Made by a program: the position numbers and the translations under genes. From positions 1,906,575 to 1,970,574 of the forward strand of contig JAUDYN010000011.1 of the NCBI GenBank assembly GCA_030407005.1: 64,000 nt of DNA, written 5' to 3'. The DNA comes from Desarmillaria ectypa. Its lineage: Eukaryota > Basidiomycota > Agaricomycetes > Agaricales > Physalacriaceae. Of this stretch, positions 12,561 to 59,200 are shown one piece after another. Under the pieces are notes generated by a model, which saw only the letters and a list, made by a program, of their open reading frames with translations, did no database searches and was not told the DNA's origin. How positions within the stretch are numbered: the first letter of the stretch is position 1; each line of letters begins with the position of its first letter.

Positions 12561-12789
12561 CTGCGGAGAATCTTCGGATGCATAGAAGCCAGTTTGCTCA
12601 GCATCGATGGTCTCTGAAATATCCTACAGATACAAGCGGCCCGGGTGTCATTATATCGACTCTCCTTCCTATGATACAGTGCGGGTCATGGGGACAGGTG
12701 CAGTTTACACGAAGATCCTGCGTTCGTACACGGTTCGCCTTAAAAAGTCGATGAGGATTTGGTGGAAAATACACTGAGCGACCCTCAAA

Positions 12790-15700
12790 ATGAACATCTC
12801 TTCCGACTTCCGCAGTATACCAACTGACCTCTTTCGACGATGGATGGCTACCCTACTCATTTGGTCGTGGCTTTACGTTCTCCTTTACGGCAGCAGTGTT
12901 GGGGCGCTCGCTAGGTCTACTATCCATTATGAGAATAGCGACACCTTGTACAGTCGTGGGGCCTCTTTCACTAATCAAGTCTCTTTTGACAACTACAGTC
13001 TGTCGCTACGTGGTCAAAGGACCTTCTTACAGTAAGTATCCTCTATTCGGTTTAAGTTGTCTGATACTGATGATTATGCAGCTCCGGGGAATTCCACACA
13101 TTTCGGTTACCTGTCCCGTCCTTATGGCCCGACATCCTGCAAAAGGTCAAGGCATCAGGTCTGAATGCTGTCAGTGTCTACGTTCACATGGGTCTCGTCA
13201 ACCCATCGCGTGGAGTGGTGGACTTTGACGGCTTTCGTGCTCTGAAGCCGCTGTACGAGGCCGCTTTGGATGCGGGTATCTGGATCGTTCTACGTCCTGG
13301 TGTGTATTAGTTCTGTTCTGCCGTTTTAGGGTGCTCAACGTTGAGATCACAGGTCCAGTCAGTTGCGCTGATTTAATTTGTGATTGGGTGCTTATCTTTT
13401 TTAGTATATCAATGCGGAGACTTCTGCAGGCGGCATAGCGCATTGGGCTACGTCAGAAGTTGCTGGAACGCTACGAACGAGCGCGCCCGATTGGAAGGAA
13501 GCATGGATGGATTACATTCTAGGGATCATCGAAGAAACAGCCCCGTATCAAATCACCGAAGGAGGGCCGGTTATTGGTGAGTGTGTCAGTGTTTTGACGC
13601 GCGTCATCCTGATCACACGTTCTGTCAGCTATACAGATTGGTCTGCTTCCTTTTGTAGCTCGAAGACGACTGATATTGAATCGCTATTTCAGATAACGAG
13701 TTCTCTCAGAGTATTGGTGGAGAGTACTTTGCCGAACTTGAAGAAGTGTATCACAATTCAAGCATTGTATTACCCCTTACCTACAATGATCCAGGAGAAA
13801 GTCGCAACTTTCTCAATGGGACCGTGAGTTTTTTATGCCATCTTTAAACGCGTCATGCTAATGCAAATGCCCCGGCTCAGGGTGCTACCGATCTTTATGG
13901 GTTTGTCCTCTTCAGTTCTCTTCTACTTCTTATCGTTGCCTTGTCAGAATTGATGCTTATCCTCAACGCTACGACTGCTCTCATCCCTTGGACTGGCACG
14001 GGGTTCCCTTGGACTACCATCAATATCACGAAGAAGTCAATCCAGCTCAGCCCTGGTATATTCCTGGTACGCGTCGCTTCTTTGTCTTCGCACTGTAAGC
14101 TAATATGAACTGGACAGAGTTCCAGGGAGGTTCGTTCGATGCTTGGGGACCAACTTCACCAGGTAATGTGCTAAGGTAGTGTTCTGCCATCGGCTTCTTA
14201 CTAGTTATGCCAGGCTATGCTCCTTGCGCCGTCCTAACAGGCCCCGATTTCATGTCTGTTTTCTATCTTCAGCTATGGACCAGCAATGCGAAGTTGATCA
14301 GTTACTACATGCTTTATGGGTCTGTGAATGGACTAATTGTCTTACTGTGCTGTTTCTAATGACATACTGTAGCGGTACATCTTGGGGGGCAATACCGTTC
14401 CAGTAAGTTGTCCATGTTATGCTGCTCCTACCATATCTTGCTAACTTCTTAAACCAGTGGGGTAATTCTTGATGACATTTTTAAATCAAACTATTAACTT
14501 CGGCAAGGTTTACACCTCATACGACTACGGAGCTTCCGTAAGTCATCTTTTTTCAACCCGGCATGCTACAACTCAGACTGGTTCAGATCAATGAAGCTCG
14601 GCAATTGACGACGAAATACGACGAGCTGAAGAGGCAAGGCCTGTTCGTCCGAAGCTCGCCGGAATTCTACAAGACAGATTGGATTGCTGACAGTTCAACC
14701 GGTCTTTCAATACTGTCGTCTAATGCAGTCTTTGCGACTTACCTCCTCAACCCTGATACACAAGCTGGATTCTACATTGTAAGACACAACGATTCCACCT
14801 CGACGTAAGAGTTTTATTCAAATTAGAAGCCTTTCCTGCATTTGCTCACCCTTACGGATAGTGCTATCACCGACTTTAAGATTAACGTTGCTACAGCAGA
14901 GGGTGACCTTCAGATCCCGATTATCGCTTCAGCAGCTACCCTCGGTGGACGACAATCTAAAGTGATCGTGACCAATTACGCCTTTGGCTCCTCACGACTG
15001 TTGTATTCCACAGCGCCAATATTTTTCGCTGGTGTCATCGATGGCAGAGATATCCTCTTCATCTATGGTGATGCTTCCCAAGAACATGAGATCGCCCTAT
15101 CGCTCACAGGCCACGCCTTCCGAAAGAATTATGATACTTCATCATTCCGAGCCACGCTCACACCGAGATCCGTTATTACAATCTTCTCCTTCCCTACTGG
15201 TACTCAAGGCCTAGTGACCGTCTATGACTCGGACTCCCAGTTGGTGTTATTTGCCGACTCTGACACCATCGCCACCTTCTGGGCACCTGTCATTTCTGGA
15301 GACAGCAGTGATTCGCTGCGCAACTTTTGGGGTCTAGGCACTAATCACTCCGTCCTCGTGGGTGGACCATATCTCGTGCGTTCAGCCAGCATATCAGGAA
15401 CGGAGCTTGCGTTGAAAGGCGACCTCAACTCCAGTACCTCGTTGACCATCATAGCTCCTGCTGTGATTAGTTCTGTGACATGGAATGGGGTTGCTTTATC
15501 GGTCAATGCATCATCATCCTTGACGGTAATTGGAGGTCTAGTGGGAGATCTCACACTGTCGTCCGCATCCGTGGATATCGCAGTGGCTCCGACATTGAAG
15601 GGATGGAAGTTCCGAGACAGCTTGCCGGAGATTCGACCAACGTTTGACGATAGTTCATTTCTTGTTGCGAACCATACCACGACGAATATTCCTCTGAAAC

Positions 15701-17074
15701 CATATTATTCCGACGGGACAATTTTGTACGGATGCGATTACGGGTTGTATGTGTCATTTTCTTGTCATACCAATTGTTCCATGAAATACCCCGAACCCGT
15801 AGCTGCGAGAATATTGTGCTTTGGAGAGGACATTTCAATGGAACTGGAACCGAGCAGAGCCTCAATCTCTCTATAAACGGTGGTGAAGGTAACAGCATAA
15901 TCTCGTCGATTTCTCCGATGCCCGGATTGATACCGGCCCGGTCCTAGCCTTTGCCGGAAGTGTTTGGCTCAATAACATTTTCTTGCGTACGTCTTACGGA
16001 AAGTGAGATATTCAGTAAATCTACGCACGCTGCGGTATTGATGCTCTATATTCGCTTGCCAGTTCTACCAACAACAGACATATTCTCGAGGAGACGGATG
16101 ATGTATTTCTCTTCCCAGAAGGCTCTGTTTTACCGGGCGATAATGTCATCACAGTAGTCCAGGTATGCGCATACATTTTTTATGCATAATTTGCTTTTAA
16201 TGTATTCCTTGGCAGGATAATATGGGCCTGAACGAGACTTCGGGAAGTACGTGTCTGTGTTCTTAGGAGCTGTCAACGGCTAATCTTTGTCGTGATACAT
16301 AGCAAATCCCAATTCTTCTAAAAGCCCTCGTGGCATTCGTGGATTTCAGCTCAATTCCGGCAAGTTCACTCAGTGGCGGGTTCAGGGCAAAATCGGAGGA
16401 TATACCGAGTGCGTGCCACCGCCAATATGAAATATATATATCCCACAAAACTCATCAATGTTCTCTCAGCTTTCCCGATAAGACCCGTGGCGTGTTCAAT
16501 GAGGGAGGTCTTTACGGCGAGCGTAAAGGCTGGCACTTGCCTGGATTCGACACGTCGTCATGGGACTTGAGGGATCTAAATCATGCTTTACCAGATTCTG
16601 CAGCAGGCATTGGCTTCTTCGTGACGACATTCGATCTGGACATTCCAGAACGATTTGACGTGCCTATGTCTTTCAACTTCAATGAACCCCTCGGTCAGCC
16701 CTACCGGGCGTACCTCTTCGTTAATGGCTGGATGATGGCCAAGCGAGTCGGAAATCTGGGGTGAGTTGGACATCATGTCATTCACTGGCCGCACAACTCA
16801 TAATCCACGTCCAGACCGCAGGCTAAATTCCCGGTTCATCAAGGCATTCTGGATTACAATGGAACCAAGTGAGCTTGCCTAATTTCTCAAAACGGAAGGT
16901 AAAATCATATCTGACAACTGCACCCGTAGCACCGTCGCTGTTGCACTCTGGGCGATGGAGGCTAATGCGACTATTACCCCCGACCTGCGGCTCAGTGTAG
17001 ACGCGGTGTATGAAGGTGGGCCGAACGGCATAGTTACGAACAATCCTCGCTGGTCTCCCGCAGGTCGCGTATGA
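12790..17074 (+). CDS. Secreted GH35 beta-galactosidase, left copy
   Basis: Large multi-exon gene, roughly 1000 residues as in the fungal LacA-type family, releasing terminal beta-galactose outside the cell. Exon 1 (12790-13031) gives a hydrophobic N-terminal segment, WMATLLIWSWLYVLLYGSSV, likely a signal peptide. The TIM-barrel domain follows: HSGEFHTFRLPVPSLWPDIL, LNAVSVYVHMGLVNPSRG, WIVLRPG, then YINAETSAGGIAHWATSEVA. A 12-nt exon (13629-13640) restores EGGPVIAIQIDNEFSQ; the Glu of NEF (13698-13700) is the expected acid/base. The nucleophile is the Glu of EFQGGSFDAWGPTSP, its codon split by an intron near 14117. The long exon at 14842-15730 carries the beta-sandwich middle domain. The C-terminal jelly-roll domains include AYLFVNGWMMAKRVGNLG, and the stop is at 17072-17074. 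The frame appears intact with canonical splice sites. The start is the first ATG before the signal-like segment, conserved in both copies. Confidence 0.88.
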
Positions 17075-17431
17075 TTGGCGGTAATACTTACCTCACCACT
17101 GAATGCACGTATAATATATCCACTTGAGCTCAGATCGAATCCTGCACCCATTTATGATAAGTGTACACAGTAGGCGATGGTGGCATTCATTTCGTACGCA
17201 ATTTCGGCGTTTTGTACCAGCAGAAAATAACTTGGGAGTAAGAATAATAAATATGTATAGAAGGAGCAGATCCACTTAAGAAGCTCTGCCTGTTCACACT
17301 GCCAGATCCGGGGTCAACGTCGCCGTCGTTGCTGTGATGGGTGTAGAAGGGTTTGAACTGCTACTGCTATCTGGCTGGGATCTCTTCTGCAAATTACCCG
17401 TTTCGAGTGACAGTGCCGTCGGATGTGATCG

Positions 17432-19374
17432 CTAAGAAGAGAAGGATTGAGTGATCCCGGGTGCAATAACAGCATTGGTAAATCCCACCTTCTCGCCCAA
17501 CACAGGGCGTGACGATTGTGTTTCCTCACCTTCACTCGTATTCGTAAACCGGCCGGAAGATTGCGCAAAGTTCGTGAACTGAATGGATACCGGCTGGTTG
17601 CTCATCTCGCGCAGTCCTTGACGAGCGTTGAGGCTGGCAAGATACGAATTTAGGTATACTGCCATTGATAAGAGACCATCAGTCCGGGTTCCAGGCTGCA
17701 GATTGTGGGGCACTCACGTTTGCTTAAAAGCAAGTAGAAACCTATGTATAAGGAAATGAAAGATCGGAGCTTGAAGCCGACTCGCTTAACTTACCGAGGA
17801 ATATGAGATTATGAGGCATCGCAGCATACGTAAGAATGCCAAGTGCGGCATCGACTCTGCGCGACGGTCAGTTCATGTGAAGGGCAATATGAAGAAAGAA
17901 CACGTACGCGACCACCAATCCAGTGTTCACCGTGTACGCCATGAGAATGGCTATCAGCGAGTCGGTCCTAAGCAATATCAGCTCCTGTTACGCGATATTG
18001 TGGAGCATCATAGGTTTACCTTTGGAACCCTGTACGTGAGGTGTAGAGATAATAACACAATGCGAGTGCGACGCTCACGTCACTCGTGGTACCAGCTGCA
18101 AAGTTCAAGTACAACAATGACTAAATGTATCCAAAAAAGTCAAATACAACATCTCGCGTTACACCGCACCAACACGTACCGAGAGTTTAGCCAGCTCGAG
18201 GTAACTCGAGATACCAAACCTGTGATGTACACCATTCAGAACCTTGACTCACACATTTAAAAAGATGACAAGGCCAACGGACGCTTTAGCGGTGATTACT
18301 GTTTTATGTGATGAATATAAAACTCTGTATTGAATAACGGATGGTCGGACTCACCGATACCGCAGACTGTGTGACCCACACCATATGATTACCTCTGTAT
18401 AATTCGTAGTCATGAATAAATGCCGTACCCAAGTCCGTAATCGATACCGTGGCCTGAATGATCATCATGCGTCATGCATCAGCAATTAAATCGTCGATAT
18501 CGGAAGGAAGACCCTCACAATCCATAGCGTTATCGCTTTATTCCCACTACTCACTACAAAACGAATCAGCGCGAGTTCTAACCAGCTCGAAACGCTTCGT
18601 TGCCCCTACATCGATATACCCGGCGAGTGAACATACTAGTAGAAATAGTCCATAAACTAAAACTCGAGTCTTCTCGCCAACAGAAAACTCACCTCCGTAT
18701 TATGAAATCGGAGATCGACTGTGGGCGTATAAGGAAAAACCCATGCTAGAACCAAAGGAGATAAGAAACCAAACGTACCGTGATCGCAACATGGAGCTCG
18801 TGACCATCTCAGCTCGCCCATTCAAAGTTCCCAGAAATCACAAGCAACGACACTCACAATAACACTCCTACAAAACGAAACCGATCAATGAACATTACGA
18901 ACTGGCCACCGCAAGCTAACGTATAACATACCAAGTCGGCGCATATATAGCCTCAGGGTTCAAATAATTCTTGACGAGATAAGAATAAAGAATGTGCCCA
19001 TTCAACACGGAGTCGAACGTATCCAAGACACTTTTTTGCAAATCACAACACGACATAAGTTTTGCAACCCAAGCCCAGCTAGAAAAGGCTCACAGAAGGA
19101 ACGCGATCTGTCATGCAAGTTGAACGATCAGACCCACCGCCCCAAGACGAACGAAGCCCGCTCTACTCACAAGAAACTTGAACGCCATCCGATCTCTCGG
19201 ATTCGTCGTGAAGAACGTATACGTCTGCACGCACGTTATACCCCACAGCCTAAAAAGATAAAATAAGAACTCAAATCCTAATCAGCATAACTACACGGTC
19301 CGAGCCGGCACATACGCCATAGCCACTAGCCCGCCAACCAACAGCGCACTCAGAGTTTGATTAAAGTCTGCCAT
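17432..19374 (-). CDS. DUF6534 family membrane protein
   Basis: Basidiomycete-specific integral membrane protein with about seven predicted membrane helices; function unknown. Exons assembled by hand read MADFNQTLSALLVGGLVAMA, then LWGITCVQTYTFFTTNPRDR, then IAFLLVLDTFDSVLNGHILY with SYLVKNYLNPEAIYAPTW. The middle gives HVAITSISDFIIRSMFTRRV and later VSVALALCYYLYTSRTGF with QRTDSLIAILMAYTVNTGLV. The end has AAMPHNLIFLG, YLNSYLASLNARQGLREM and a polar cytoplasmic tail that stops at 17432. These match the DUF6534 order, including the terminal LYxNSxLAxLNxRxxLR signature. Introns are about 50 bp. The tail overlaps the inner end of the left repeat arm, and only this tail is duplicated in the other arm (51148-51362). 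Confidence 0.85.
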
Positions 19375-30207: not shown

Positions 30208-31900
30208 ACTAATTCCAATCGTCCGCTTTTCATTTACACCAGCACCACTAGGGTTCTGTAAGAAATGTCGGATCCTAAACATGGTGTTCATGACCTGGTT
30301 TATACGTCAACAATTGCCAATATTTATGACATCGTCGCAGCAGAAAGTAGCGCGCCGCCCACCTCTACAGCACTACTGTGACTAAACGTGATATTCCGGA
30401 GTTCATAGAATATACTTTTGATGAGTTTCGTTGGTTTGGGCACTAATCCTGGGGAAAATAGTTTATGCCTGGTTGTCTTGGCCAATGTAACGACATGCAA
30501 GCTCGGATTGGGCCTTACAGTATTCCCTTGGCATTATACAAGGATGTCGAAGCTGTCAGAATGAATACCGCACGCATACAGGTTATAAATATCTCATTTC
30601 TAACAGGTTATTAACACTTCTTGCTGATATGTTCGAAATCTGTTTAACATGTCCAAATTAGGGAGGATGTTTATAATCGGTTTTAAACACGGACCCATAA
30701 TGTCTTACGGAACCTTAACCGGCACGCTTCGTCCGACCATGAGGAGAACGGTCCGTTCCTTGTATGACCCACATCAGAATTCACCTCCAGGACTCGTGTC
30801 GAGCTGACTTGTTCTCGTCTGAGTGGAGGAATGACTTCTCGTGTGTCACCGTGCCACGTTTGCGCCATCCCTAGAGTAGTGTTATAGAATATGAATGGAT
30901 AGTCTCGGATCATGATGCAGATAACGATAAAAATGTTTATACGGTGCGATACCAGCTACCCAACGCGATATCGGCAAGACAAATGTGCAAAGCTAACTTC
31001 GTGTTCCTGAGAGCTGACTTCTTGGGACATCCACTCCGCAGCGAGTATTCGGTAGGGAGGTATGAAGCGTCTGCCTGGAGGGAACGAGCAGCCCCAGCCT
31101 GAGGCCAAGTTGCGGTCTCTTACATTGTATTGAATTTAGACATTGTCCTATTTTTGCGTCCTGTGATATTAAATGAATCAACCACCTTCATATCCAACCT
31201 AAGTTTGTAAGAGTCGAACTTTCTGGTATCAAGTGAAGTAGTGTCCACGGGCTCAGTAATGAGAGGTTCCTTCCCGTAGTGTCATACATCCCTTTCGTTA
31301 GCACTCGTTTCAAGCAGCGAGATGTCAGACTGGGATCACAGCCCGTTCCTGTTTTAATTTACGATGGCCGGAACCGGTATTTAATTCCATGATGAGGTCC
31401 GATCCTGAGGCGGGGACTAATCTAAAATCTGGGTGAATCGTCGAATGGAGAGTTTATCTGAAACTATAAAAAGGAGGGAAGGCGACGCGAGGCCCGAATG
31501 GATATCCCCGAGTAGGTGAAAAATACTGTAGTGCGCTGTGACCGGGGACTACGCGAAGATGATTAACCTCATGTGTTCCTGAGAGCTGGGAAACGGCATT
31601 CTAACGGTATTTACGAGAGCCGAGCGGAAGTGCACTTCCCAGTAGGTGAACGGAGCGAGGTACCTTTTTATGATACGTCTCCCGAACTCGAGAGGACGGG
31701 TGCAAATGTATGATATGGCGTATTATGAACGTTGCTATGTATACTAAAGCAGTACCAGGTTTTGAACTGTCATGAGGGAATAAGGCTAGTTTGAGGGAGC
31801 AGTGTAAGCGGAATATTATGGAGGGAGCGTAGGGTTCCTTGTTTAATTTAATCAAAGCAACCCTGGGGGTGCCGACGCGCTAAATTAACCCTGCGCGCGC
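30208..31900 (+). repeat. Left arm of the smaller inverted repeat (axis about 32.2 kb)
   Basis: Matches the reverse complement of 32547-33695. The innermost ~1.3 kb is very similar, including a 60-80 residue shadow ORF on each arm that starts MIKLNKEPYAPSIIFRLHCS. The inner end stops abruptly after CCCTGCGCGCGC near 31900. A block at 30246-30721 is absent from the other arm (see next feature). No protein-coding function is evident, and the element type is not known; a foldback-like transposon is one possibility. Confidence 0.8.
30246..30721. mobile_element. MITE-like insertion in one palindrome arm
   Basis: About 476 bp is present here and missing at the equivalent place in the right arm, where CATTTACACCAGCAC runs directly into GCTTCGTCCGACC. 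The ends carry imperfect inverted repeats. GGTTCTGTAAGAAAT at 30251 pairs with the reverse complement of the right end, GGTTCCGTAAGACAT, with two mismatches. GCAC flanks both sides and may be a target-site duplication. No ORF of note. The superfamily cannot be assigned. Confidence 0.6.
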
Positions 31901-32546
31901 GTGAGTCGATTGAGGAACACGAGGAGGGAGCGTCAAACCAAGCCTGGAGTCATGATTTTGGACGGTGCGCCTTGTGAGGGAGGGTAAGCACCACCGACGG
32001 TTCGGGAGTCTGACCAAAAAATAAGGGTCGGGAAGGAATGATCCTGCCTAGTTTCCTCCTCTGCAGAGAAAGGAATCAATCAATCCATTATCTAAAACAC
32101 AGTAGTTTGTACCATGAACGAAGATCCTTGTGGGGGCTATCCATTACAACTCCGGTGAAACGCTGCGAGCTATTGAATCGCCTGTGCAGCCGATTAAGTA
32201 AGAAATCAGCGTCGGGATGATGGTCCATCTGATTGAGCCTATAAAGCTCAGCACGGGAGCTGCGGCCTATCAGCGTATAAACGAAGAACCCCGAGGGGCT
32301 ATCATTACAACTCGGGTGAACCACTGCAGGCTATTGAATCGCCTAACAAACGACAGTGCCGCGGTTGTAAGGAATCGGCGACGGGATGGTAATACTTGTT
32401 TGCTCTTGTTAACTCACGTCGCGCTTGCCTGTTTCTGGGATGTAACGGTGACAAGGCGCCTGCTGCTCATTTACTTCCCCGGCGGCGTTGCCCTCTCTCC
32501 TACGGCTGACAGCTTTCAGTCATTAATCGCCCGGTGACCCTCCGGG
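31901..32546. repeat. Palindrome spacer with two direct repeats
   Basis: The unpaired centre of the inverted repeat. Two direct copies spaced about 160 bp apart begin near 32117 and 32281 and share GCTATTGAATCGCCT and GATGGT with a similar order of other short matches. No gene. Confidence 0.55.
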
Positions 32547-33695
32547 TGCGCGCGCAGGGTTAATTTAGCGCGTCGGCACCCCCAGGGTTGCTTTGATTAA
32601 ATTAAACAAGGAACCCTACGCTCCCTCCATAATATTCCGCTTACACTGCTCCCTCGAACTAGCCTTATTTCCTCATGACAGTTCAGAACCTGGTACTGCT
32701 TTAGTATACATAGCAACGTTCATAATACGCCATATCATACATTTGCACCCGTCCTCTCGAGTTCGGGAGACGTATCATTGAAAGGTACCTCGCTCCGTTT
32801 CCCTACTGGGAAGCGCACTTCCGCTCGGCTCTCGTAAATCCCGTTAGAATGCCGTTTCCCAGCTCTCAGGAACACATGAGGTTAATCATCTTCGCGTAGT
32901 CCCCGGTCACAGCGCACTGCAGTATTTTTCATACTCGGGGATATCCATTCGGGCCTCGCGTCGCCTTCCCTCCTTTTTATAGTTTCAGATAAACTCTCCC
33001 TTTGACAATTTACCCAGATTTCAGATTCGTCCCCACCTCAGGATCGGACCTCATCATGGAATTAAATACCGGTTCCGGCCATCGTAAATTAAAACAGGAA
33101 CGGGCTGTGATCCCAGTCGGACATCTCGCTGCTCGAAACGAGTGCTAACGAAAGGAATGTATGGGAAGAACCTCTTATTACCGATTTACTTAATACCAGA
33201 AAGTTCGACTCTTACAAACTTAGGTTGGATATGAACGTGGTTGATTCATTTAATATCACAGGACGCAAAAATAGGACAGTGTCTAAATTCAATAGAATGT
33301 GAGAGACCGCAACTTGGCCTCAGGCTGGGGCTGCTCGTTCCCTCCAGGTAGACACTTCATACTCGCTACGAAATGGACGTCATATCCTCCCAAAAATCAG
33401 CAGCACTCTTTACACACCGCCCAAATCACGTGGGGTTGGCTGGTGCTTCTCGTTATATGCATCATGATTCGGGACCATCCGTTCATATTGCGCTCTTCTA
33501 TAACACTACTCTGGGGGCGGTGCAAACACGCGAGAAGTCAACGCCTCTGTCAAATGAGGAGACGAAAGAACAAGTGTCAGCGCGACACGAATCTTGAGTT
33601 GAATTCCAACGTGGGGTCATATATTGAGGGAACAAAGATAGAGTAGGTCGGACGAAGCGTGCTGGTGTAAATGAAAAGCGAACTATTGGAATATA
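32547..33695 (-). repeat. Right arm of the smaller inverted repeat
   Basis: Reverse complement of 30208-31900 without the 476-bp insertion. It keeps the undisturbed target site of that insertion around 33650-33670. The sequence contains a T-A-rich promoter-like phrase, CTTTTTATAGTTTCAG, near 32975, also present in the other arm, but no open gene. Confidence 0.8.
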
Positions 33696-34610: not shown

Positions 34611-37600
34611 TAAGGCTATTTCGGGGATCTCGGAATGTCTCGCAAGTCCCAAAACCTTGGTTTATGGACACAAAATCCGAAGTTTATTTTCTCTCATTCG
34701 CCAAAAAAAAAAAACGGTTGTCAAGATTTGACCACAGCAAAATATGTCGGGATTCCCATTAACGGTAAAAGCCGACTATGCAGCCCCTGGCCCGAAACAG
34801 CGGATTAAGCATCAATGAAGAAGGGCGCAAACGAGACGAACCCTGCTTGTTCAGGCCTGTTAGGAACGAGGAAACCATTCACATGACAACGGGTAACTCA
34901 TTTGGATGATCGGTTATCGCGTAAATTAACCTTTTAAGCATCACAGCCTTGGCCTCATTCACACTGCCCGACAGGAACCAAATAACGGAATACCAACGCC
35001 ACCCGAGTCGCAAGAGAGCCCCCGTTGATTCATGGATACGGACATTGGGAGTCTGTGTTTGGGTAGAGGGATGAATGAATCATCCTTGCTGCGAGGCCCA
35101 AGCTAGAACTTGGAGGTCAGCTTTACTACTATCCCTTCCATCTTACTAGCGATCGCTTCCATCTCACGAAGGGCCCTGTACTTGTTACGCTCCTCCAACG
35201 CCCGCGTCAAGCGCGAGTTCTTTCATGTCCTCACTTAATCAGAGAACCGACCCATGATGAACAGCCAGGATGGAATGTTGACCTATGACGTACTCTTCTA
35301 CTCCCACCACCCAGGGGTGATGATTCCATTGTGAATCTTTCATTGGAAGCAAGAGCTCCCGTGGCCTTCGCGGAACAAGTTGCTGGCCCGACGAAGTCGC
35401 TCGCTTCGCGGGTTCATCAATGGGGCTTTCGGGATGCCAGATCGGCCGCGGGTTCGTTTGGGTGAAAGCTCCCGCGCGTGATGGGACTCGCCATATGACG
35501 AATACGTTCATGATATCTCTCCTGATCGCGCGCTGCTGCTCTCCGTCTCGGTTCCTTGTGCTCAGGTCGCCTCGACTGGCAAGTGATGTATGTACCTATC
35601 TTTGAGTTCAAGTGATGGCTCCCGTTCCTCAGTTGCTAGGATCTCCTTGTGCAGGAACTTGTGATGTGCGTTTCTTGAGTTCATGCACAGTTTTGCTCAC
35701 CGGTGTCTAGGCCTCGAGTTCGTCAGTTTGTTTGTTCCTTGGTTTGAATGGGTGCACCCGTGAAATGAAGCTACTTGTCTCGCTCCATTCTCTCCGCCGC
35801 AACAAAACTAGAAGCGTTATGTCGTTCCTTAATGGTTCCTGCGCGTCTATTCTGGGTCAATACTATGTTCCTTCTAAAGCCACACCCCGAGTTCTAGCTC
35901 GGCAAGGAACATTCATTTCGAGGTCCCAACACGGAGACGCAATGTCCGCGCTACTGGTCACCATTGGGTTCTCGAGTTCGAGTTGTTAATTGTAACCGAT
36001 ATCCCACTACTAGATTCCCGCCGGAGAGTGTGTTGGATGGATGTTACGTTTACAAAGGTTAATTTATACGATGACCACCGATCATCCAGGTGAGTTACCC
36101 GTTTACTTCAGTCGTTGTCAAGTGAAATTGCTTCTTACTTCCTAGGAATCATATTAAACAGGGCTGGGCAACGATAGTGGGGCTGAGGCTTCTTCATTTA
36201 TGCCTGATTTGAGGACAACCCGATATTTCGGGGCAGGGGAAATTGGTGTGATGCATTTGCTGCTAGAACTTCAAGTTGGTATGAATGGAACCCATCTCTA
36301 GCGCTAACGTAGAGTAGACGCGCAGGAACCAGGGTCAGTACAGTGGTTCTAGTTTTGTTGCAGTTCCTTTTTGAATCTGGAAATGGAGCGGGTGCTATCA
36401 AAGTAAGTACTCGTCATCTCGATCTGTACAAGTAGAAAATGATTAGTCAAATGCAATGGAATCCAGTTCATAAGGACCTGTCACTTTGTTTCAAAGGCAA
36501 CCTATCCATGACGGAGAGTAGCCAACAAAGGATCAGGAGCGATATTGTAGAAGAATCTTTCGTGCTATGTTGACATCATACCTGGTAGCCATTCGCGGGA
36601 GTCGGTCGTCAGACACGGGAGTTTTTCATCCCGACAAAGCCGGTCTGGAATCCCGAAAGCTGGTACCACAATTAGTAAGTGACTTTGGTCGGGTTAGCAA
36701 CTTGTTCCGTGAATTGCCACGGGAGCATTTGCTTTGTTCATCCAATGAAAAGGACGTCACGCTGGTAGTAAAATCCATTATAGAAGAACATTCCAACTTG
36801 TATCGGAGAAAATTCAGATCAGATAATAATGGACGAGGCTCCGTGCTACGACAGACGCCCCGCAGGAATTATGACGTCGTCGCAGTAATGATCTTCATTC
36901 TATCCGCGTAGAAACGTAACCGCGTGCAATCAACTCGCTAATTGAAAGTGCGACGAACCGATGCGTCGGGCGTTGGGATAGCGTTAGCACACACGTGCAG
37001 TACTAGACTAACCTGCGAATCATACTCCGATAAATGAAGAAGGACGATGACTATGCATTTGTGAGGAACGAATTTAAAACAGATGAAAGGCGCCATACGA
37101 TGAATGAATGGATTGGCATAGTAGCAAACACCACCCCCACACCACCGGAGATGATCGTCGCCATCATTCGAGGACAGAGCGGTCGATTACCCTTTCCAGA
37201 AAGCCCTAGGCACCTCCCATCTAATAAGTCTCCCAACAATTCCCAACTCGAGTTAGCAGATAACTTTTCCCCCATATGCTACAAGCCGAACCAGCTCATG
37301 TACACCCGACGCGCGGGATCTCTTTCCACTGCCAAAAATAATCAAATCATTACGGCTGAGTAAGTATACAAAAAGAATCAAAGGAGTGACCATAGTTAGT
37401 CCGAAGAAGTAGGATAAGACAAATGATGATGACGAGGAAAATAACAGAGAAAGACTATCAGTACTGACTTACACACACACACCCCCTTCTACGCATAAAG
37501 GACAACGACGCATATGTATGATTTCCGTCCGGATCAACAACAGGCTCCGCCCCTCGCTTCCGACGTTCGTTCATATCCGCAACCATCAGAGACGAAGGCA

Positions 37601-37656
37601 AAAAAGAAAGAAAAAAAAATTCAAAAAATCTCTGAATGCGAGTGCGGGTTGCGCAT
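34611..37656. other. 3 kb stretch with possible gene remnants
   Basis: No intact gene found. A minus-strand open stretch at about 35106-35215 reads LTRALEERNKYRALREMEAI then ASKMEGIVVKLTSKF-stop. It has coding character and may be the last exon of a lost gene whose earlier exons would lie in 35239-35611. A plus-strand ORF of 114 residues (36567-36911) has no recognised features. Elsewhere nothing is seen. Confidence 0.3.
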
Positions 37657-38904
37657 TTACAAGCCTGCGACTGGCTGGTTGTAGGGCTGTGGGGAACGAC
37701 GGGATGAGTAAAAATGGGAAGGAAAAGGAAAAAGAAAAGTGCGATGCGTACCTCTGCCTTGGCTTCACGACGCCAGGATGCTCCCGGGCCATTGATGGGC
37801 TAGAAGGATATATTTATATGCTACATCAAGGGCGGACAGAAAGAATGCTCACTTCAGCCTCCGCCTCTCGACGCCAGGACTGTCCTGTAGCGCCTCCATT
37901 GAGGGGCTAAATAATCAATCCATCAGAAACCAAAAAAAAAAAAAAAAAAAAGATAGCTTGAATGGATAATCACCTCAGGTTCCCTACGCCATCCAGCAGC
38001 TGGTTGATTCGAGGGCTATGAGAGCCGTTGATCAAAATGGGAACAGTAGATAAAAATGCGGTGATAGATACCTCAGCTTCTCGACGCCATGATTGACCGG
38101 CAGCACCACTGTTCATGGGCTATAAAAAGAGAATAGTGAGTAGGGGGAGGGGCGGTGATAGTCGGTTGGCAGTGCGCGTACCTCCGCTTCCGGTTGACGA
38201 CGCCAAGCTGCACCGGTGGAGCCGCCGTTCATGGGCTACGGACAAGTCAGATTTTGACAGAGAAAGAGACGCGTACAAGGTGCCGTACCTCAGCTACTCG
38301 ACGCCAGGCAGCACCAGGTTGGTTTGCAGGCTGGGGATGAAAAGATGATGAGATAAAATTTTGTTAAAGTGAAGGTACAAACCTCACGACGCCAGGCAGC
38401 GCCGGGTTGATTGGCAGGCTATATGGTAATGGAGTTATACGGTGAATGCTCTACCAGTATGGATTATTTACGCACCTCACGACGCCAGGCCGCTCCGGGT
38501 TGATTAGCAGGCTGATGGATAGCATGAATGAATAAACTCTTGGTAGTTGCAGTACGGAATCGTACCTCACGCGCTACGTGCATTTCCTAGGACGAAAGAT
38601 AAGTCAACGCGTCCAGGTAATTGAATGGAACCCGCAGCACCCACTTGAGCATCACGACGCCAAGATTGACCTGATTGACCTCCTCCGCCATTCGCGGGCT
38701 GATACGGGGTAAGCACAGGATAGCTTTCGGATAACTCAAACACGCACCTCCGCTTCCCGCAGCTCGACTTTACTTTGTTCTCCCTAGAGTCGATAGTCAG
38801 AAAAAATTCCGACAAGTAGGACGGATAGGTCCGCGTACCGCAGGGGCCGCCCCAACGAATGCCATCGCCGAGGCCAGTACGACGAGCAGATTATTGAATC
38901 TCAT
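37657..38904 (-). CDS. Secreted Kex2-processed repeat precursor (multi-peptide)
   Basis: Thirteen exons spliced by hand (high to low): 38839-38904, 38748-38783, 38645-38698, 38566-38586, 38476-38511, 38383-38418, 38289-38330, 38182-38235, 38072-38119, 37974-38015, 37853-37906, 37752-37799, 37657-37686; about 188 residues. Exon 1 is a signal peptide (MRFNNLLVVLASAMAFVGA then APA). Ten short units follow, nine ending Trp-Arg-Arg and the last in Leu. Predicted cores: ANGGGGQSGQSW; ANQPGAAW (three times); MNGGSTGAAW; MNSGAAGQSW; SNQPAAGW; LNGGATGQSW; INGPGASW; YNQPVAGL. RR is a Kex2 site. Spacers such as EAEP, EPEP, VAEP, QPEAEP and EAKAEP are strings of X-Ala/X-Pro, the substrate of Ste13-type dipeptidyl aminopeptidase. 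All splice sites are GT-AG, phase 0, mostly GAG|GT and AG|CC. Exon 4 (EMHVARE) breaks the pattern; skipping it would join DAQ to P and keep the frame and dipeptide rule. Architecture is that of alpha-factor/KEP precursors; peptide function unknown. Confidence 0.85.
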
Positions 38905-51147: not shown

Positions 51148-51362
51148 ATCCCCTGGCCTCAACGCTCGATGCTCGCAAAGGACTGCGCGAGATGGGCAAC
51201 CAGCCGGCGTCCATCCAATTCACAAACTTTACGCAATCTTGCGGCAGATTTGCGACTATGAATAAAGGTAAGGAAACACAATCGTCACGCCCTGTGTTGG
51301 GCGAGAAGGTGGGATTTATTGACATTGTTATTGCACCCGGGATCGTTCAATCCTTCTCTTAG
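51148..51362 (+). pseudogene. Truncated 3' end of a DUF6534 gene
   Basis: Matches the last coding part of the intact DUF6534 gene at 17432-19374: ARKGLREMGNQPASIQFTNF against ARQGLREMSNQPVSIQFTNF, and SSRPVLGEKVGF in both. Homology starts abruptly inside the last exon; everything encoding the membrane helices is missing. A few extra bases (TCGATGC) break the LASLNAR signature. Non-functional fragment marking the breakpoint of the large duplication. Confidence 0.75.
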
Positions 51363-51723
51363 CGATCACATCCGACGGCACTGTCACTCGAAACGGGTAA
51401 TTTGCAGAAGAGATCCCAGCCAGATAGCAGTAGCAGTTCGAACCCTTCTACACCCATCACAGCAACGACGGCGACGTTGACCCCGGATCTGGCAGTGTGA
51501 ACAGGCAGAGCTTCTTAAGTGGATCTGCTCCTTCTATACATATTTATCATTATTACTCCCAAGTTGTTTTCTGCTTGTACAAAGTGCCAAAATTGCGTAC
51601 TAAATGAATACCACCGCCGCCTAGGTGTGTACACTTAATTTCATAAATGGGTGGGGTATTCGATCTGAGATCAAGTGGATATATTATACATGCATTCAGT
51701 GGTGGGGTAAGTATTGCCGTCAA

Positions 51724-54700
51724 TCATACACGACCTGCGGGAGACCAACGAGGATTGTTCGTAACTATGCCGTTCGGCCCACCTTCATACACCGCGTCTA
51801 CACTGAGCCGCAGGTCGGGGGTAATAGTCGCATTAGCCTCCATCGCCCAGAGTGCAACAGCGACGGTGCTACGGGTGCAGTTGTCAGATATGATTTTACC
51901 TTCCGTTTTGAGAAATTAGGCAAGCTCACTTGGTTCCATTGTAATCCAGAATGCCTTGATGAACCGGGAACTTAGCCTGCGGTCTGGACGTGGATTATGA
52001 GTTGTGCGGCTAGTGAATGACATGATGTCCAACTTACCCCAGATTTCCGACTCGCTTGCCCATCATCCAGCCATTAACGAAGAGGTACGCCCGGTAGGGC
52101 TGACCGAGGGGTTCATTGAAGTTGAAAGACATAGGCACGTCAAATCGTTCTGGAATGTCCAGATCGAATGTCGTCACGAATAAGCCAATGCCTGCTGCAG
52201 AATCTGGTAAAGCATGATTTAGATCCCTCAAGTCCCATGACGACGTGTCGAATCCAGGCAAGTGCCAGCCTTTACGCTCGCCGTAAAGACCTCCCTCATT
52301 GAACACGCCACGGGTCTTATCGGGAAAGCTGAGAAAACATTGATGAGTTTTGTGGGATATATGTATTTCATATTGGCGGTGGCACGCACTCGGTATATCC
52401 TCCGATTTTGCCCTGAACCCGCCACTGAGTGAACTTGCCGGAATTGAGCTGAAATCCACGAATGCCACGAGGGCTTTTAGAAGAATTGGGATTTGCTATG
52501 TATCACGACAAAGATTAGCCGTTGACAGCTCCTAAGAACACAGACACGTACTTCCCGAAGTCTCGTTCAGGCCCATATTATCCTGCCAAGGAATACATTA
52601 AAAGCAAATTATGCATAAAAAATGTATGCGCATACCTGGACTACTGTGATGACATTATCGCCCGGTAAAACAGAGCCTTCTGGGAAGAGAAATACATCAT
52701 CCGTCTCCTCGAGAATATGTCTGTTGTTGGTAGAACTGGCAAGCGAATATAGAGCATCAATACCGCAGCGTGCGTAGATTTACTGAATATCTCACTTTCC
52801 GTAAGACGTACGCAAGAAAATGTTATTGAGCCAAACACTTCCGGCAAAGGCTAGGACCGGGCCGGTATCAATCCGGGCATCGGAGAAATCGACGAGATTA
52901 TGCTGTTACCTTCACCACCGTTTATAGAGAGATTGAGGCTCTGCTCGGTTCCAGTTCCATTGAAATGTCCTCTCCAAAGCACAATATTCTCGCAGCTACG
53001 GGTTCGGGGTATTTCATGGAACAATCGGTATGACAAGAAAATGACACATACAACCCGTAATCGCATCCGTACAAAATTGTCCCGTCGGAATAATATGGTT
53101 TCAGAGGAATATTCGTCGTGGTATGGTTCGCAACAAGAAATGAACTATCGTCAAACGTTGGTCGAATCTCCGGCAAGCTGTCTCGGAACTTCCATCCCTT
53201 CAATGTCGGAGCCACTGCGATATCCACGGATGCGGACGACAGTGTGAGATCTCCCACTAGACCTCCAATTACCGTCAAGGATGATGATGCATTGACCGAT
53301 AAAGCAACCCCATTCCATGTCACAGAACTAATCACAGCAGGAGCTATGATGGTCAACGAGGTACTGGAGTTGAGGTCGCCTTTCAACGCAAGCTCCGTTC
53401 CTGATATGCTGGCTGAACGCACGAGATATGGTCCACCCACGAGGACGGAGTGATTAGTGCCTAGACCCCAAAAGTTGCGCAGCGAATCACTGCTGTCTCC
53501 AGAAATGACAGGTGCCCAGAAGGTGGCGATGGTGTCAGAGTCGGCAAATAACACCAACTGGGAGTCCGAGTCATAGACGGTCACTAGGCCTTGAGTACCA
53601 GTAGGGAAGGAGAAGATTGTAATAACGGATCTCGGTGTGAGCGTGGCTCGGAATGATGAAGTATCATAATTCTTTCGGAAGGCGTGGCCTGTGAGCGATA
53701 GGGCGATCTCATGTTCTTGGGAAGCATCACCATAGATGAAGAGGATATCTCTGCCATCGATGACACCAGCGAAAAATATTGGCGCTGTGGAATACAACAG
53801 TCGTGAGGAGCCAAAGGCGTAATTGGTCACGATCACTTTAGATTGTCGTCCACCGAGGGTAGCTGCTGAAGCGATAATCGGGATCTGAAGGTCACCCTCT
53901 GCTGTAGCAACGTTAATCTTAAAGTCGGTGATAGCACTATCCGTAAGGGTGAGCAAATGCAGGAAAGGCTTCTAATTTGAATAAAACTCTTACGTCGAGG
54001 TGGAATCGTTGTGTCTTACAATGTAGAATCCAGCTTGTGTATCAGGGTTGAGGAGGTAAGTCGCAAAGACTGCATTAGACGACAGTATTGAAAGACCGGT
54101 TGAACTGTCAGCAATCCAATCTGTCTTGTAGAATTCCGGCGAGCTTCGGACGAACAGGCCTTGCCTCTTCAGCTCGTCGTATTTTGTCGTCAATTGCCGA
54201 GCTTCATTGATCTGAACCAGTCTGAGTTGTAGCATGCCGGGTTGAAAAAAGATGACTTACGGAAGCTCCGTAGTCGTATGAGGTGTAAACCTTGCCGAAG
54301 TTAATAGTTTGATTTAAAAATGTCATCAAGAATTACCCCACTGGTTTAAGAAGTTAGCAAGATATGGTAGGAGCAGCATAACATGGACAACTTACTGGAA
54401 CGGTATTGCCCCCCAAGATGTACCGCTACAGTATGTCATTAGAAACAGCACAGTAAGACAATTAGTCCATTCACAGACCCGTAAAGCATGTAGTAACTGA
54501 TCAACTTCGCATTACTGGCCCATAGCTGAAGATAGAAAACAGACATGAAATCGGGGCCCGTTCGGACGGCGCAAGGAGCATAGCCTAATATAGGTAGTAA
54601 GAAACCAATAGTAGGACACCATCTTAGCACATTACCTGGTGCAGTTGGTCCCCAAGCATCGAACGAACCTCCCTGAAACTCTGCTCAGTTCATATTAGCT

Positions 54701-56009
54701 TACAGTGCGAAGACAAAGAAGCGACGCGTACCAGGAATATACCAGGGCTGAGATGGATTGACTGCTTCGTGATATTGATGGTAGTTCAAGGTTACCCTGT
54801 TCCAGTCTAAGGGATGAGAGCAGTCAAAGCCTTGAGGATAAGAATCCAGTCTGATAAGGCAACGATAAGAAGTAGAAGAGAGAGCTGAAGAAGACAAACC
54901 CGTAAAGATCGACAGCACCCTGATGAGGCATTTTCGTTAGCATGAGGCATTTCGAAGCTGCCATAACAAACTGACAGTCCCATTGATAAAGTTGCGACCT
55001 TGCCCTGGATCATTGTAGGTAAGGGGTAATACAATGCTTGAATTGTGATACACTTCTTCAAGTTCGGCAAAGTACTCTCCACCAATACTCTGAGAGAACT
55101 CGTTATCTGAAATAGCGATTCAATATCAGTCGTCTTCGAGCTACAAAAGGAAGCAGACCAATCTGTATAGCTGACAGAACGTGTGATCAGGATGACGCGC
55201 GTCAAAACACTGACACACTCACCAATAACCGGCCCTCCTTCGGTGATTTGATACGGGGCTGTTTCTTCGATGATCCCTAGAATGTAATCCATCCATGCTT
55301 CCTTCCAATCGGGCGCGCTCGTTCGTAGCGTTCCAGCAACTTCTGACGTAGCCCAATGCGCTATGCCGCCTGCAGAAGTCTCCGCATTGATATACTAAAA
55401 AAGATAAGCACCCAATCACAAATTAAATCAGCGCAACTGACTGGACCTGTGATCTCAACGTTGAGCACCCTAAAACGGCAGAACAGAACTAATACACACC
55501 AGGACGTAGAACGATCCAGATACCCGCATCCAAAGCGGCCTCGTACAGCGGCTTCAGAGCACGAAAGCCGTCAAAGTCCACCACTCCACGCGATGGGTTG
55601 ACGAGACCCATGTGAACGTAGACACTGACAGCATTCAGACCTGATGCCTTGACCTTTTGCAGGATGTCGGGCCATAAGGACGGGACAGGTAACCGAAATG
55701 TGTGGAATTCCCCGGAGCTGCATAATCATCAGTATCAGACAACTTAAACCGAATAGAGGATACTTACTGTAAGAAGATCCTTTGACCACGTAGCGACAGA
55801 CTGTAGTTGTCAAAAGAGACTTGATTAGTGAAAGAGGCCCCACGACTGTACAAGGTGTCGCTATTCTCATAATGGACGGTAGACCTAGCGAGCGCCCCAA
55901 GACTGCTGCCGTAAAGGAGAACGGAAAGCCACGACCAAATGAGTAGGGTAGCCATCCATCGTCGAAAGAGGTCAGTTGGTATACTGCGGAAGTCGGAAGA
56001 GATGTTCAT
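51724..56009 (-). CDS. Secreted GH35 beta-galactosidase, right copy
   Basis: Inverted duplicate of the 12790-17074 gene, with the same exon layout and domain order. The N-terminal segment differs slightly (SVLLYGSSLGALARSTVHYE against YVLLYGSSVGALARSTIHYE). The 344-residue exon differs by one residue (HTDCS against HTNCS). The acid/base DNEFSQ and nucleophile EFQGGSFDAWG motifs are present. In the diverged patch the reading frame is kept, with replacements such as LDSYPQGFDCSHPLDWNRVT against IDAYPQRYDCSHPLDWHGVP. That suggests both copies have been under constraint. Stop codon at 51724-51726. Expected activity: extracellular hydrolysis of beta-galactosides. Confidence 0.87.
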
Positions 56010-56259
56010 TTTGAGGGTCGCTCAGTGTATTTTCCACCAAATCATCATTGACGCTTTTAAGGCGAACCGTGTACGAACGCAGGATCTTCGTGTAAACTGC
56101 ACCTGTCCCCATGACCCATACTGTATCATGGGAACGAGAGTCGAAGCGCACAGAATAACACCCGGGCCGCTTAAATCTGTAGGATACTTCAGAGACAATC
56201 GATGCTGAGCGAACGGGCTTCCATGCGTACCGAGGATTCTCCGCAGAGTATCATCGCCA

Positions 56260-59200
56260 CCTCAACGCATCTATGTTGAGCGTCTGTAGCTCAAAAAAGT
56301 GACGCACAAAGGGGTTGCCAAAGATACACGGTCTTGGTCGGGCCGTGCCACACTCGCCACTGGAAGAAAATCGGTGAGCTTCGACCCGATATCCGGTCGG
56401 CCTGAAGGATGCACCTTGTAAGGAAGGCTAACATTAAAGGTTGAATATTTGAACGTTGGCTGTTGCGGTGAAGTTCCACAATAGAGCACAGAAGATGAGA
56501 TCAACTATCAGACAAGTGTCAGCAAAGCACAAAGTTTACCGTATACGGGCCCACGTGCGGAAGTGAATTTCACAAGGCATCATTTTTCACGAATCTCGTG
56601 GACGCTGGGCAGTACACGATGTAACTTGTACGTTGATCATGCTGACAATCGTTCAACGGGTTCTTGCAGCGTTATATCCCAGGACTTGAAGCCTGAAAAG
56701 GTGGATGACCGAACTGCACTGAGGGAGTTAGATAAGTATAACCGGCAACTTGCACGCCAAGAGTGCCAACAAGAAGCGATTGAATGATATACTATCATAT
56801 AGGCAAAGGAGGCTACGGAGAAGGACGTGACGAGCGGCGGCCACTCGTCCCTGATGATAGCAGGGACTCCGGTTCTAAAGGTCTGAGCATGACTCGGGGC
56901 TGAAGAAGGTGTTCCTATTGCGCGTCCAGGAAGGCTCTTGCAAACCTGAAAGGCATGGAGTTGGACGGCAAATGTACATATCCGTCGCCGTGCTATCCCC
57001 CAGAGGAAGCGGAATATGATTACGACCCGCTTGAGATGGTTGCCCGGAAAAACGTTGAAGAAAATCATGACTGTCGATTTACTGTTATGAGTGTTTATTC
57101 AACATTCATGGGAAGAAATGTAAAACCAATTTGACTCACTTTTGCTTTTACTTCGTAGCATTATCCGATGCATGCGGCGGAACCCGAAACTGTTGTCGCA
57201 AGCGGTGTCCCAACGACAGCGTTAGACATGGTCCAGACTAAGGAGCCTGCAAAAGCAATATCGGCACATCTTTTGGAAGCAGTCAACGGGTCCTACCCAC
57301 TTCTGCAATGGAAGCTGATCGTTTAATGAAACCATGTACCACGAATAACTAGTACTCACGTCGTCGACGTCAGCGTTCAGTCGTCTTATCTTCTTAACGT
57401 TGGCATGCGCCTAATCATCCACCTTCTTGCAGTCATCACCTGTGCTTCTTGCACATGCTCGACCATCAGCTCGCTTCCGAAGTGGAATATACGATGCGCA
57501 GATACATGTGGTGGATCACGGTGAGCTGCTATTATTGTTGACTGTCACGACGAAAAACATGAACACAGTGACGGGCGACACCTGCTAGGCGAAGAGAACA
57601 GAGAAAAACGAGTTAATGACTTTGTGTTGTGGTCTAGCCTAGTCTGCAGCTGATCAAAGATGATGTTTCCCGAGGCGTGAAATGAACAGGATAGGGGAAA
57701 CGAGCTGGACCAAACGAGTTGCGGATCTGTGCCAGCTAGCTCAGAATGGCGAGTCATTCCGGCTTTACGTCGTAAATGATCGGTCATTAATATGCATGAT
57801 GATCCAATGGGGAATGAAAAGCCAGGGAGTATCACTTCTTGATTGGTGCTGTTCCGAGCGTCCTTTGACGTGGTTCTGGTGCGAGTGAGAACTGGAAATA
57901 GAGAAGATGTCGGCGGTGATAGAGACACAGTGCGAAAATATGGATAGGGAAAAATGCTGTACGCATTGAGAGGATGGTGGATCCGCATCGCTGTGAGCGT
58001 TTGACTTTACCAATAACTTACCGATGCTGACTAGAGGTGGCCACGAACATCTGCCTTCAAACGTCCTCTCGAGAGCCAGACGACAACTAAACGACTACAA
58101 CTCCACGGACTCCATCTAGGGCGCCGCCGTAAGAGAGTCGTCTCTGAAAAAGTATGCGGTCGACAACGACCCTAATGGACAGTCGCTCCCGGGTATGACC
58201 TTGGTATAGCACAAAGACGCATTGTTAAAATGACAACGATATAGTCGTCAAATGTCGACAAGTGCTGAGATCCAACATGAATGAAGTGAATGGAAGAATG
58301 AGGTACCACACGCGATCCGATTGAACAGATAAGCAGGCTGGAAGCGGTCATTAACGGGGTTGTACACCGTATCACCCTCTGGATAAGGCGCGGAAGAAGA
58401 CTCCTAGGCTGAGGATATGGCAATACGGTCGGCCATCGCAGCACAAACTACCAGTAAGTTCTTCTGCAGGAGGAAAATAGGAGAGATGGTGTTCTATCGT
58501 GGTTAAGGAAACGTTACAGGGAGATTTAGCTGCAGTACCATCAGCCCCACCTACTTATGCTAACAGGATAAGGAGGCTGGCGAGCCTGTGATGCGCGCTA
58601 AGGACGGGATACGCTTCAAAGGGTGCTGGATGAGCGACTGACGATGGTGACGTTCCAGGATCAGTATAATGGGACCTCGGCTTTGTCTGCCCAAGGATAT
58701 GCGACTTCTTTCCGTTTTTCTTCTAGTATGCAAGCGCTCTCATGGGCAAACGGTACGCGGCGATTTTCTACAGCGAATGATCCCCACACCCCAACGACGA
58801 GGGAGTCAAGTGTCTTCGTAGAGAATTTGGCTTCCTTGCAAAGTTTGTAAGAATCATTGCTGTCACGGAGAGGATCGGGTTCTGACGGAATCCTGAAGAT
58901 AAGTTGCATATCATGAAATGAAATGAAAGTCTTTCGTTCCTAGCAGCACATGTAGCTACCTCGTAGGCATTTTTCTAAACAATGGTGGTCAGAGTATGCT
59001 CATTGATGGAGACAGAATACATACCAGTCAACATCCAGATCCGAATGTACCCCGCATAGTTCGGATACTGAGTTGTTTTAGAGTCGTCGTTTTCTGAGTG
59101 CTTTTCTATGATTGGGCGCCAACAAAAAAGGCTATCTCCGCCTCATACACAGTCCAAATTGGCCAATGCGGCAGATTGAAGGTCAAGGTCATGACTTGAG

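Follow-up and report, generated by a model that had tools for sequence, protein, structure and literature searches.

A probable alpha-factor-like KEX2-processed repeat protein with one predicted peptide per micro-exon in Desarmillaria ectypa

Gene model and surroundings of the locus

The Desarmillaria ectypa genome spans 40.6 Mb in 32 contigs. The stretch analysed here, the window, is 64 kb of contig C3 (1906575-1970574), and positions without a contig name refer to it. A gene on the minus strand, referred to here as KEP, runs from an ATG at 38904 to a TAA ending at 37657, and all 13 of its exons were placed exactly by script (Table 1). The coding sequence of 567 nt, stop included, specifies a precursor of 188 aa. 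The exons measure 66, 36, 54, 21, 36, 36, 42, 54, 48, 42, 54, 48 and 30 nt, each a multiple of 3, and the twelve introns are all GT-AG, 49-67 nt long and in phase 0. Pro-x-Asn opens ten units (exons 3 and 5-13), nine of which carry Trp-Arg-Arg (WRR) while the tenth runs into the stop. An earlier reading of this DNA, made from the sequence only, had proposed these end points, 13 exons of 21-66 nt, ten Pro-x-Asn units and nine WRR sites, and exon placement reproduced it exactly. The structure is an open, splice-consistent model, whose exons would be spliced as drawn by analogy with characterised relatives.

Exon 1 encodes a signal-peptide-like leader as judged by hydropathy, the sole leader test, which gave a best mean of 2.68 across 11 residues from residue 7, with an Ala-rich end. 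No Pfam family matched the 188-aa precursor at E<=0.1, in agreement with the proposal that it has no other domain. The a-type mating pheromones of basidiomycetes end in a C-terminal CaaX box. Such a box is absent from KEP, which has no Cys in its 188 residues and ends in VAGL.

Table 1. Positions of the KEP gene and its exons in the window
Feature	Position	Strand	Basis
Whole KEP gene, 13 exons, 188 aa	37657..38904	-	exon placement and homolog P0001
Exon 1, MRFNNLLVVLASAMAFVGAAPA, signal-peptide-like	38839..38904	-	exon placement; hydropathy only
Exon 2, GEQSKVELREAE, pro-piece, putative single-Arg site then EA-E(P)	38748..38783	-	exon placement; A. borealis has GEQSEVELREAE
Exon 3, PANGGGGQSGQSWRRDAQ, core ANGGGGQSGQSW	38645..38698	-	exon placement; core identical in A. 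borealis
Exon 4 (21 nt), EMHVARE, putative single-Arg site then E(P)	38566..38586	-	exon placement; EIHVARE in A. borealis
Exon 5, PANQPGAAWRRE, core ANQPGAAW	38476..38511	-	exon placement
Exon 6, PANQPGAAWRRE, core ANQPGAAW	38383..38418	-	exon placement
Exon 7, PANQPGAAWRRVAE, core ANQPGAAW	38289..38330	-	exon placement
Exon 8, PMNGGSTGAAWRRQPEAE, core MNGGSTGAAW	38182..38235	-	exon placement
Exon 9, PMNSGAAGQSWRREAE, core MNSGAAGQSW	38072..38119	-	exon placement
Exon 10, PSNQPAAGWRREPE, core SNQPAAGW	37974..38015	-	exon placement
Exon 11, PLNGGATGQSWRREAEAE, core LNGGATGQSW	37853..37906	-	exon placement
Exon 12, PINGPGASWRREAKAE, core INGPGASW	37752..37799	-	exon placement; RREAKAE shared with A. 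borealis
Exon 13, PYNQPVAGL and stop, last core YNQPVAGL without WRR	37657..37686	-	LNQPAAGW in A. borealis

KEP sits in ~34 kb between the arms of a large inverted duplication (11352-17632 and 51165-57489). The arms are 85-98% complementary in pieces, the longest being 3,241 nt at 98%, and both hold beta-galactosidase (GH35) coding stretches; a further 82-nt pair lies at 9921 and 59124. A compact inverted repeat at 31060-33362, in which three pairs of arms (178-384 nt, 95-97% complementary) flank a 647-nt centre that holds a 42-nt direct repeat, is possibly a transposon-like palindrome. The stretch 28000-51500 is gene-poor or heavily split, and its only open frame of at least 150 aa (37413-37910, plus strand) is partly antisense to KEP. 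Nine open frames at 34-50 kb, picked from 90 of at least 75 aa at 28.0-51.5 kb, gave no Pfam match. No partner gene next to KEP was visible among the open frames, where split genes would escape, and neither Rfam nor tRNA scans returned anything for the window.

Coding evidence and a homolog in Armillaria borealis

To place the WRR repeats against background, nonamers coding for WRR were counted across the window. There are 25 (6 on the plus and 19 on the minus strand), and 11 of them fall in the 1,248-nt KEP span on the KEP strand, nine in frame within units and two out of frame (exons 3 and 11). Outside KEP the maximum is two per 1,248 nt; with 0.16 expected from the other 16, the Poisson probability of at least nine is ~2e-13. 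Exons 5, 6 and 7, which share PANQPGAAWRR, differ at six positions, all third positions, through at least eight changes that are all silent, with no replacement. Since random changes would be silent in ~27% of cases, this pattern has a probability of ~2.5e-5, rising to 4e-5 when a transition bias of 4 is assumed, with changes treated as independent.

A word-based search of limited reach against a 5.8-billion-sequence database found a single homolog, the hypothetical Armillaria borealis protein P0001, which is 59% identical to KEP across 93% of the query (E 3e-58). P0001 joins the sequences of exons 1-5 as KEP does, with exons 2-4 reading GEQSEVELREAE-PANGGGGQSGQSWRRDAE-EIHVARE. These shared joins in a 59%-identical protein, together with the silent-only changes among the ANQPGAAW exons, support KEP as coding. 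The P0001 model starts at MAFVGAAPA, lacking the first 13 residues of KEP, and is garbled in its middle. The sequence-only reading had suggested that standard annotation misses such a gene, which is plausible given that this search found one protein, whose model lacks its start.

Only the first (ANGGGGQSGQSW) of the eight distinct KEP cores is shared unchanged with A. borealis. The last two units correspond (INGPGASW-RREAKAEP-YNQPVAGL here, ISGRGPSW-RREAKAEP-LNQPAAGW in A. borealis), whereas the middle block has three copies of ANQPGAAW in KEP and five of ANQASAAW in P0001. The repeated core has therefore changed as a set while the ends are better kept. Read by eye, the dipeptides of the ANQASAAW block are GP, DP, DP, EP and DP, with Pro constant and the first residue varying. 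Either exon conversion or separate expansion may have produced the two blocks.

Similarly organised loci in related species, which the sequence-only reading had taken as a test of its claim, are represented by this one homolog. A profile search from the two sequences found no further relative at E<=10 (7,996 candidates sharing most words scored). Within the genome, the 188-aa protein gave nine matches, all at the KEP locus, and no second copy at E<=10. A codon pattern for Trp-basic-basic-acid-Ala/Pro matched three times in the genome, always in the KEP gene. A second such pattern also matched three times, once in the KEP gene and twice without an encoded motif (reversed control, two), and is a weak test for paralogs because it detects only one of the nine KEP units. 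A stricter pattern gave no match and is uninformative, since it missed the KEP gene itself.

A single open frame elsewhere in the window (1882-3495) had 17 relatives among the matches listed (7,995 candidates sharing most words scored). Its identity is 58-74% to proteins of Armillaria solidipes, nabsnona, borealis, ostoyae, mellea and novae-zelandiae, 67-68% to Guyanagaster, which like Armillaria belongs to the Physalacriaceae, and 26-28% to Mycena. Annotated relatives of this frame thus occur in six Armillaria species among the matches listed, and those of KEP in one; in the other species KEP may be missed by annotation, too divergent for the search or absent. The source contigs of P0001 and of two A. 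borealis relatives of the frame, P0005 and P0009, are all sized 514,850. This equal size, the only basis for the link, suggests that all three lie on one contig, with P0001 as the syntenic ortholog of KEP.

Spacers, cores and the nature of the precursor

The spacers, read from the nearest Arg to each core, are EAEP, EP, EP, EP, VAEP, QPEAEP, EAEP, EPEP, EAEAEP and EAKAEP. Their length is even before all ten cores, and Ala or Pro is second in 20 of 20 dipeptides. When the shared final EP is excluded, the remaining ten dipeptides all obey the rule, for which the chance is ~4e-6 at the protein's own Ala plus Pro content. An X-Ala/X-Pro spacer directly follows eight of the nine WRR sites. The exception is exon 3, where the first WRR leads into DAQEMHVAR and then EP, which would violate the rule without cleavage at a single Arg; exon 4 thus needs a single-Arg cut, as does exon 2. 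Single-Arg cleavage products have been reported for Coprinopsis KEPs made in Pichia (PMC9769878).

As read from the residues, X-Ala/X-Pro dipeptides before every core are the STE13 signature of yeast alpha-factor. Because whole dipeptides of this kind precede each core, the gene product is very probably a KEX2-processed repeat protein (KEP) of the alpha-factor-like type. Its nine WRR sites, ten related units and three identical cores agree with the definition of KEPs by at least three similar units with dibasic sites between them (PMC9769878). The earlier proposal of a secreted, KEX2-type multi-peptide precursor built from micro-exons was right in its layout, and it overlooked the spacer before every core. 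The Pro-x-Asn units it described are present in all ten cases, but their Pro ends the trimmed dipeptide EP and so probably lies outside the core; the cores it listed do start after Pro.

Processing can be proposed by analogy with characterised relatives. The leader would route the precursor into the secretory pathway, where KEX2 would cleave after Arg-Arg and, in exons 2 and 4, also after a single Arg. The Arg pair would be stripped by a KEX1-type carboxypeptidase to leave a C-terminal Trp, and a STE13-type dipeptidyl aminopeptidase would trim one to three X-Ala/X-Pro dipeptides and halt where residue 2 is Asn. Asn is residue 2 in every core, and would be expected to stop an X-Ala/X-Pro peptidase. 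The predicted products are ten linear peptides of 8-12 residues and of two kinds by eye, an NQP type (three ANQPGAAW, SNQPAAGW, YNQPVAGL) and an NG/NS type (ANGGGGQSGQSW, MNGGSTGAAW, MNSGAAGQSW, LNGGATGQSW, INGPGASW). The cores contain no charged residue and no Cys, and Tyr occurs in one of ten. Predicted [M+H]+ values of the peptides are 814.3842, 951.3989, 1008.4204, 830.3791, 990.4639, 801.3890, 1105.4657 and 861.4465, with a computed shift of +226.095 for forms that retain EP. The genome has four DPPIV_N matches at two places, one P_proprotein match and 36 Peptidase_S10 matches, which do not imply orthology to STE13, KEX2 and KEX1.

Precursors of this layout are on record. Basidiomycota KEPs with clear STE13 signatures were described in 2019, with hormone-like roles suggested (Le Marquer 2019, PMC6339444), and a survey of annotated proteins with signal peptides found 7,878 KEPs in 1,345 of 1,461 strains (Umemura 2020, PMC7329392). 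Trp-ending agaricomycete KEP peptides were detected by LC-MS in 2022, including MSGVAADW in Pleurotus fruiting bodies, and Coprinopsis KEP 490115 made in Pichia lost its XA/XP motif to yield QYKAPSW and QMRPPSW (Vogt 2022, PMC9769878). KEP shares dibasic sites, XA/XP spacers and short Trp-ending cores with Coprinopsis cinerea 490115, Pleurotus ostreatus 1091723 and P. eryngii 1439342 (PMC9769878); according to PMC7329392, P. ostreatus 1091723 is also among the six in Fig. 7b of PMC6339444. The agaricomycete KEPs have a signal peptide, comparable with the signal-peptide-like leader of KEP, except for the P. eryngii 1439342 model, which is likely misannotated, and the N-terminal part of 490115 yields peptides that end at a single Arg, as is also predicted for KEP (PMC9769878). 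Lentinula edodes KEP 2599 (SGTGEASAADW), found in fruiting bodies, is again a repeat precursor with a Trp-ending core; unlike KEP it carries one core seven-fold, and the STE13 motif, stated for the Pleurotus KEPs, is unclear for 2599 (PMC9769878). The published cores (QYKAPSW, MSGVAADW) differ from those here, and the likeness is one of layout. S. cerevisiae MFalpha1 has a comparable leader, repeated cores, dibasic site and EA-type spacer, whereas KEP has unrelated cores, RR in place of KR, ten varied cores against four near-identical ones, and one core per exon. KEP fits the Agaricomycete STE13-type group by layout, and since its layout matches that published group it is not a new kind of molecule. 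The gene is accordingly less novel than the sequence-only reading had proposed, signature KEPs of Basidiomycota and Trp-ending peptides having been reported before (PMC6339444, PMC9769878).

The most likely use of the peptides, on weaker grounds than the precursor type, is extracellular signalling, directed at the fungus itself or at other organisms. A self-signalling role falls a little short of an even chance, and the portions of PMC6339444, PMC7329392 and PMC9769878 consulted demonstrate no signalling role for basidiomycete STE13-signature KEPs. Action on other organisms, such as antagonists, bacteria or the host plant, is a tentative possibility. Knockouts of all six tested Coprinopsis KEPs had no apparent phenotype in axenic culture, and their authors favour biotic interaction (PMC9769878). 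The divergence of the repeated core, ANQPGAAW here and ANQASAAW in A. borealis, points the same way. Many antimicrobial peptides carry charge or Cys, however, and the KEP cores have neither.

A structural or surface role like that of Ustilago Rep1, with which the predicted secreted KEX2 repeat layout and the Gly/Gln/Asn-rich cores of KEP would be compatible, is improbable, given that Rep1 has no STE13 signature in the account consulted (PMC6339444) and that the KEP cores span 8-12 residues.

The sequence-only reading had left room for a RiPP-like precursor, and a dikaritin type, with cores cyclised by UstYa-family enzymes, is quite improbable. Dikaritins and other ustiloxin-type RiPPs do share with KEP the layout of a KEX2-cut repeat precursor bound for the secretory pathway, and this genome holds many matches to the UstYa family (18, of which 16 exceed the family cut-off). 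The STE13 signature alone does not exclude this origin, because UstYa (DUF3328) neighbours are reported for 17 of 76 KEPs that are similar to the pheromone-like set of Basidiomycota (Umemura 2020, PMC7329392). None of the 18 matches lies on the KEP contig, however, in an intron-blind search that gives a lower bound, and this disfavours a cyclised product. KEP further differs in its STE13 spacers, for which cyclic-tetrapeptide and epichloecyclin precursors have no counterpart in the description consulted (PMC6339444), and in having Tyr in a single core. UstYa frames form groups at C23:3354147-3369129, C12:519325-540434, C27:3687233-3691194 and C28:2810686-2814809, which are possible dikaritin-like loci. 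No precursor was found near UstYa genes in six 10-kb stretches on these contigs, which cover part of the UstYa places, by a scan for a 3-residue-plus-dibasic motif occurring at least three times in an open frame of at least 50 residues, a search blind to micro-exon genes.

It is very improbable that the gene supplies a true alpha-type mating pheromone for a STE2-like receptor, even though the precursor, XA/XP spacer included, has the layout of ascomycete alpha-factor. The mating pheromones of basidiomycetes are of the a-type (PMC6339444). The genome gave no STE2 match, a result that does not show absence since the control genomes gave none either; STE3, by contrast, was recovered by the same type of split-exon search, with 31 matches (C2, C9, C1, C29). 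None of these is on the KEP contig, so KEP does not lie beside a detected pheromone receptor. Neither an MF-alpha domain nor an alpha-factor core was found in KEP, with no Pfam family at E<=0.1 and no core of the WCxxGxxCW form described for filamentous ascomycetes (PMC3068285). The STE3-type receptor frames form two groups, C2:1393792-1537176 and C9:5419-18129, which are likely mating-receptor regions. A chance pattern or decayed gene is extremely improbable: noise could supply exons of 21-54 nt and Trp is missing from the last core, but the WRR clustering, the silent-only changes and the A. borealis homolog all speak against it.

One predicted peptide per symmetric micro-exon

Each KEP unit occupies its own symmetric phase-0 exon, and ten of the twelve introns split an E|P dipeptide. 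Skipping or duplication of a unit exon would therefore keep both the frame and the processing signals. From this a modular precursor can be imagined, its peptide mixture tuned by alternative splicing and enriched with new peptides by exon duplication, in genes that would occur widely in agarics and be largely missing from KEP inventories; we regard this as unlikely. Similarity among introns 4-12 is 46.5%, compared with 47.3% after shuffling, so that they carry no visible trace of the duplications; the unit exons are 58% alike. Intron homogenisation was rejected as the cause of the repeats, as these introns are no more alike than shuffled ones.

One peptide per symmetric micro-exon is the unusual part of the KEP gene. 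Literature searches, one of them covered as the best 15 of 182 records, listed no KEP or pheromone gene that we recognised as having one peptide per exon, and no comparable layout is described in the consulted parts of PMC10182648, PMC3068285 (both on pheromones) and PMC8786786. Across the main texts of PMC6339444, PMC7329392 and PMC9769878, 'exon' appears 0 times and 'intron' once in all; because KEP papers hardly mention introns, a lack of this layout in other KEPs cannot be claimed. The micro-exon genes (MEGs) of schistosomes resemble KEP in having mostly short symmetric exons, a secreted product and the potential for in-frame skipping, and appear to use symmetric exons for splicing variants (PMC5825161). 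MEG exons measure 6-36 nt against 21-54 nt in KEP, and the likeness is one of layout only; for KEP, alternative splicing is hypothetical. We know of no repeat-peptide processing for MEGs.

The pheromones of basidiomycetes are lipidated and a-type, yet mushrooms also produce alpha-factor-like precursors, for the peptides of which the portions of PMC6339444, PMC7329392 and PMC9769878 consulted report neither a purpose nor a receptor. KEP adds a well-supported case near Armillaria, with exact predicted peptide masses. The surveys of PMC7329392 and PMC9769878 started from annotated proteins with a predicted signal peptide, and a model like that of A. borealis might fail this filter because its first 13 residues are missing. 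KEP genes can thus escape inventories built from annotated proteomes. If the one-peptide-per-exon layout is common, mushroom peptide counts are too low, and the exon architecture of KEPs merits a survey.

As a minor observation, intron 4 (38512-38565, 54 nt) is stop-free in all forward frames and has a length divisible by 3, so that its retention would keep the frame.
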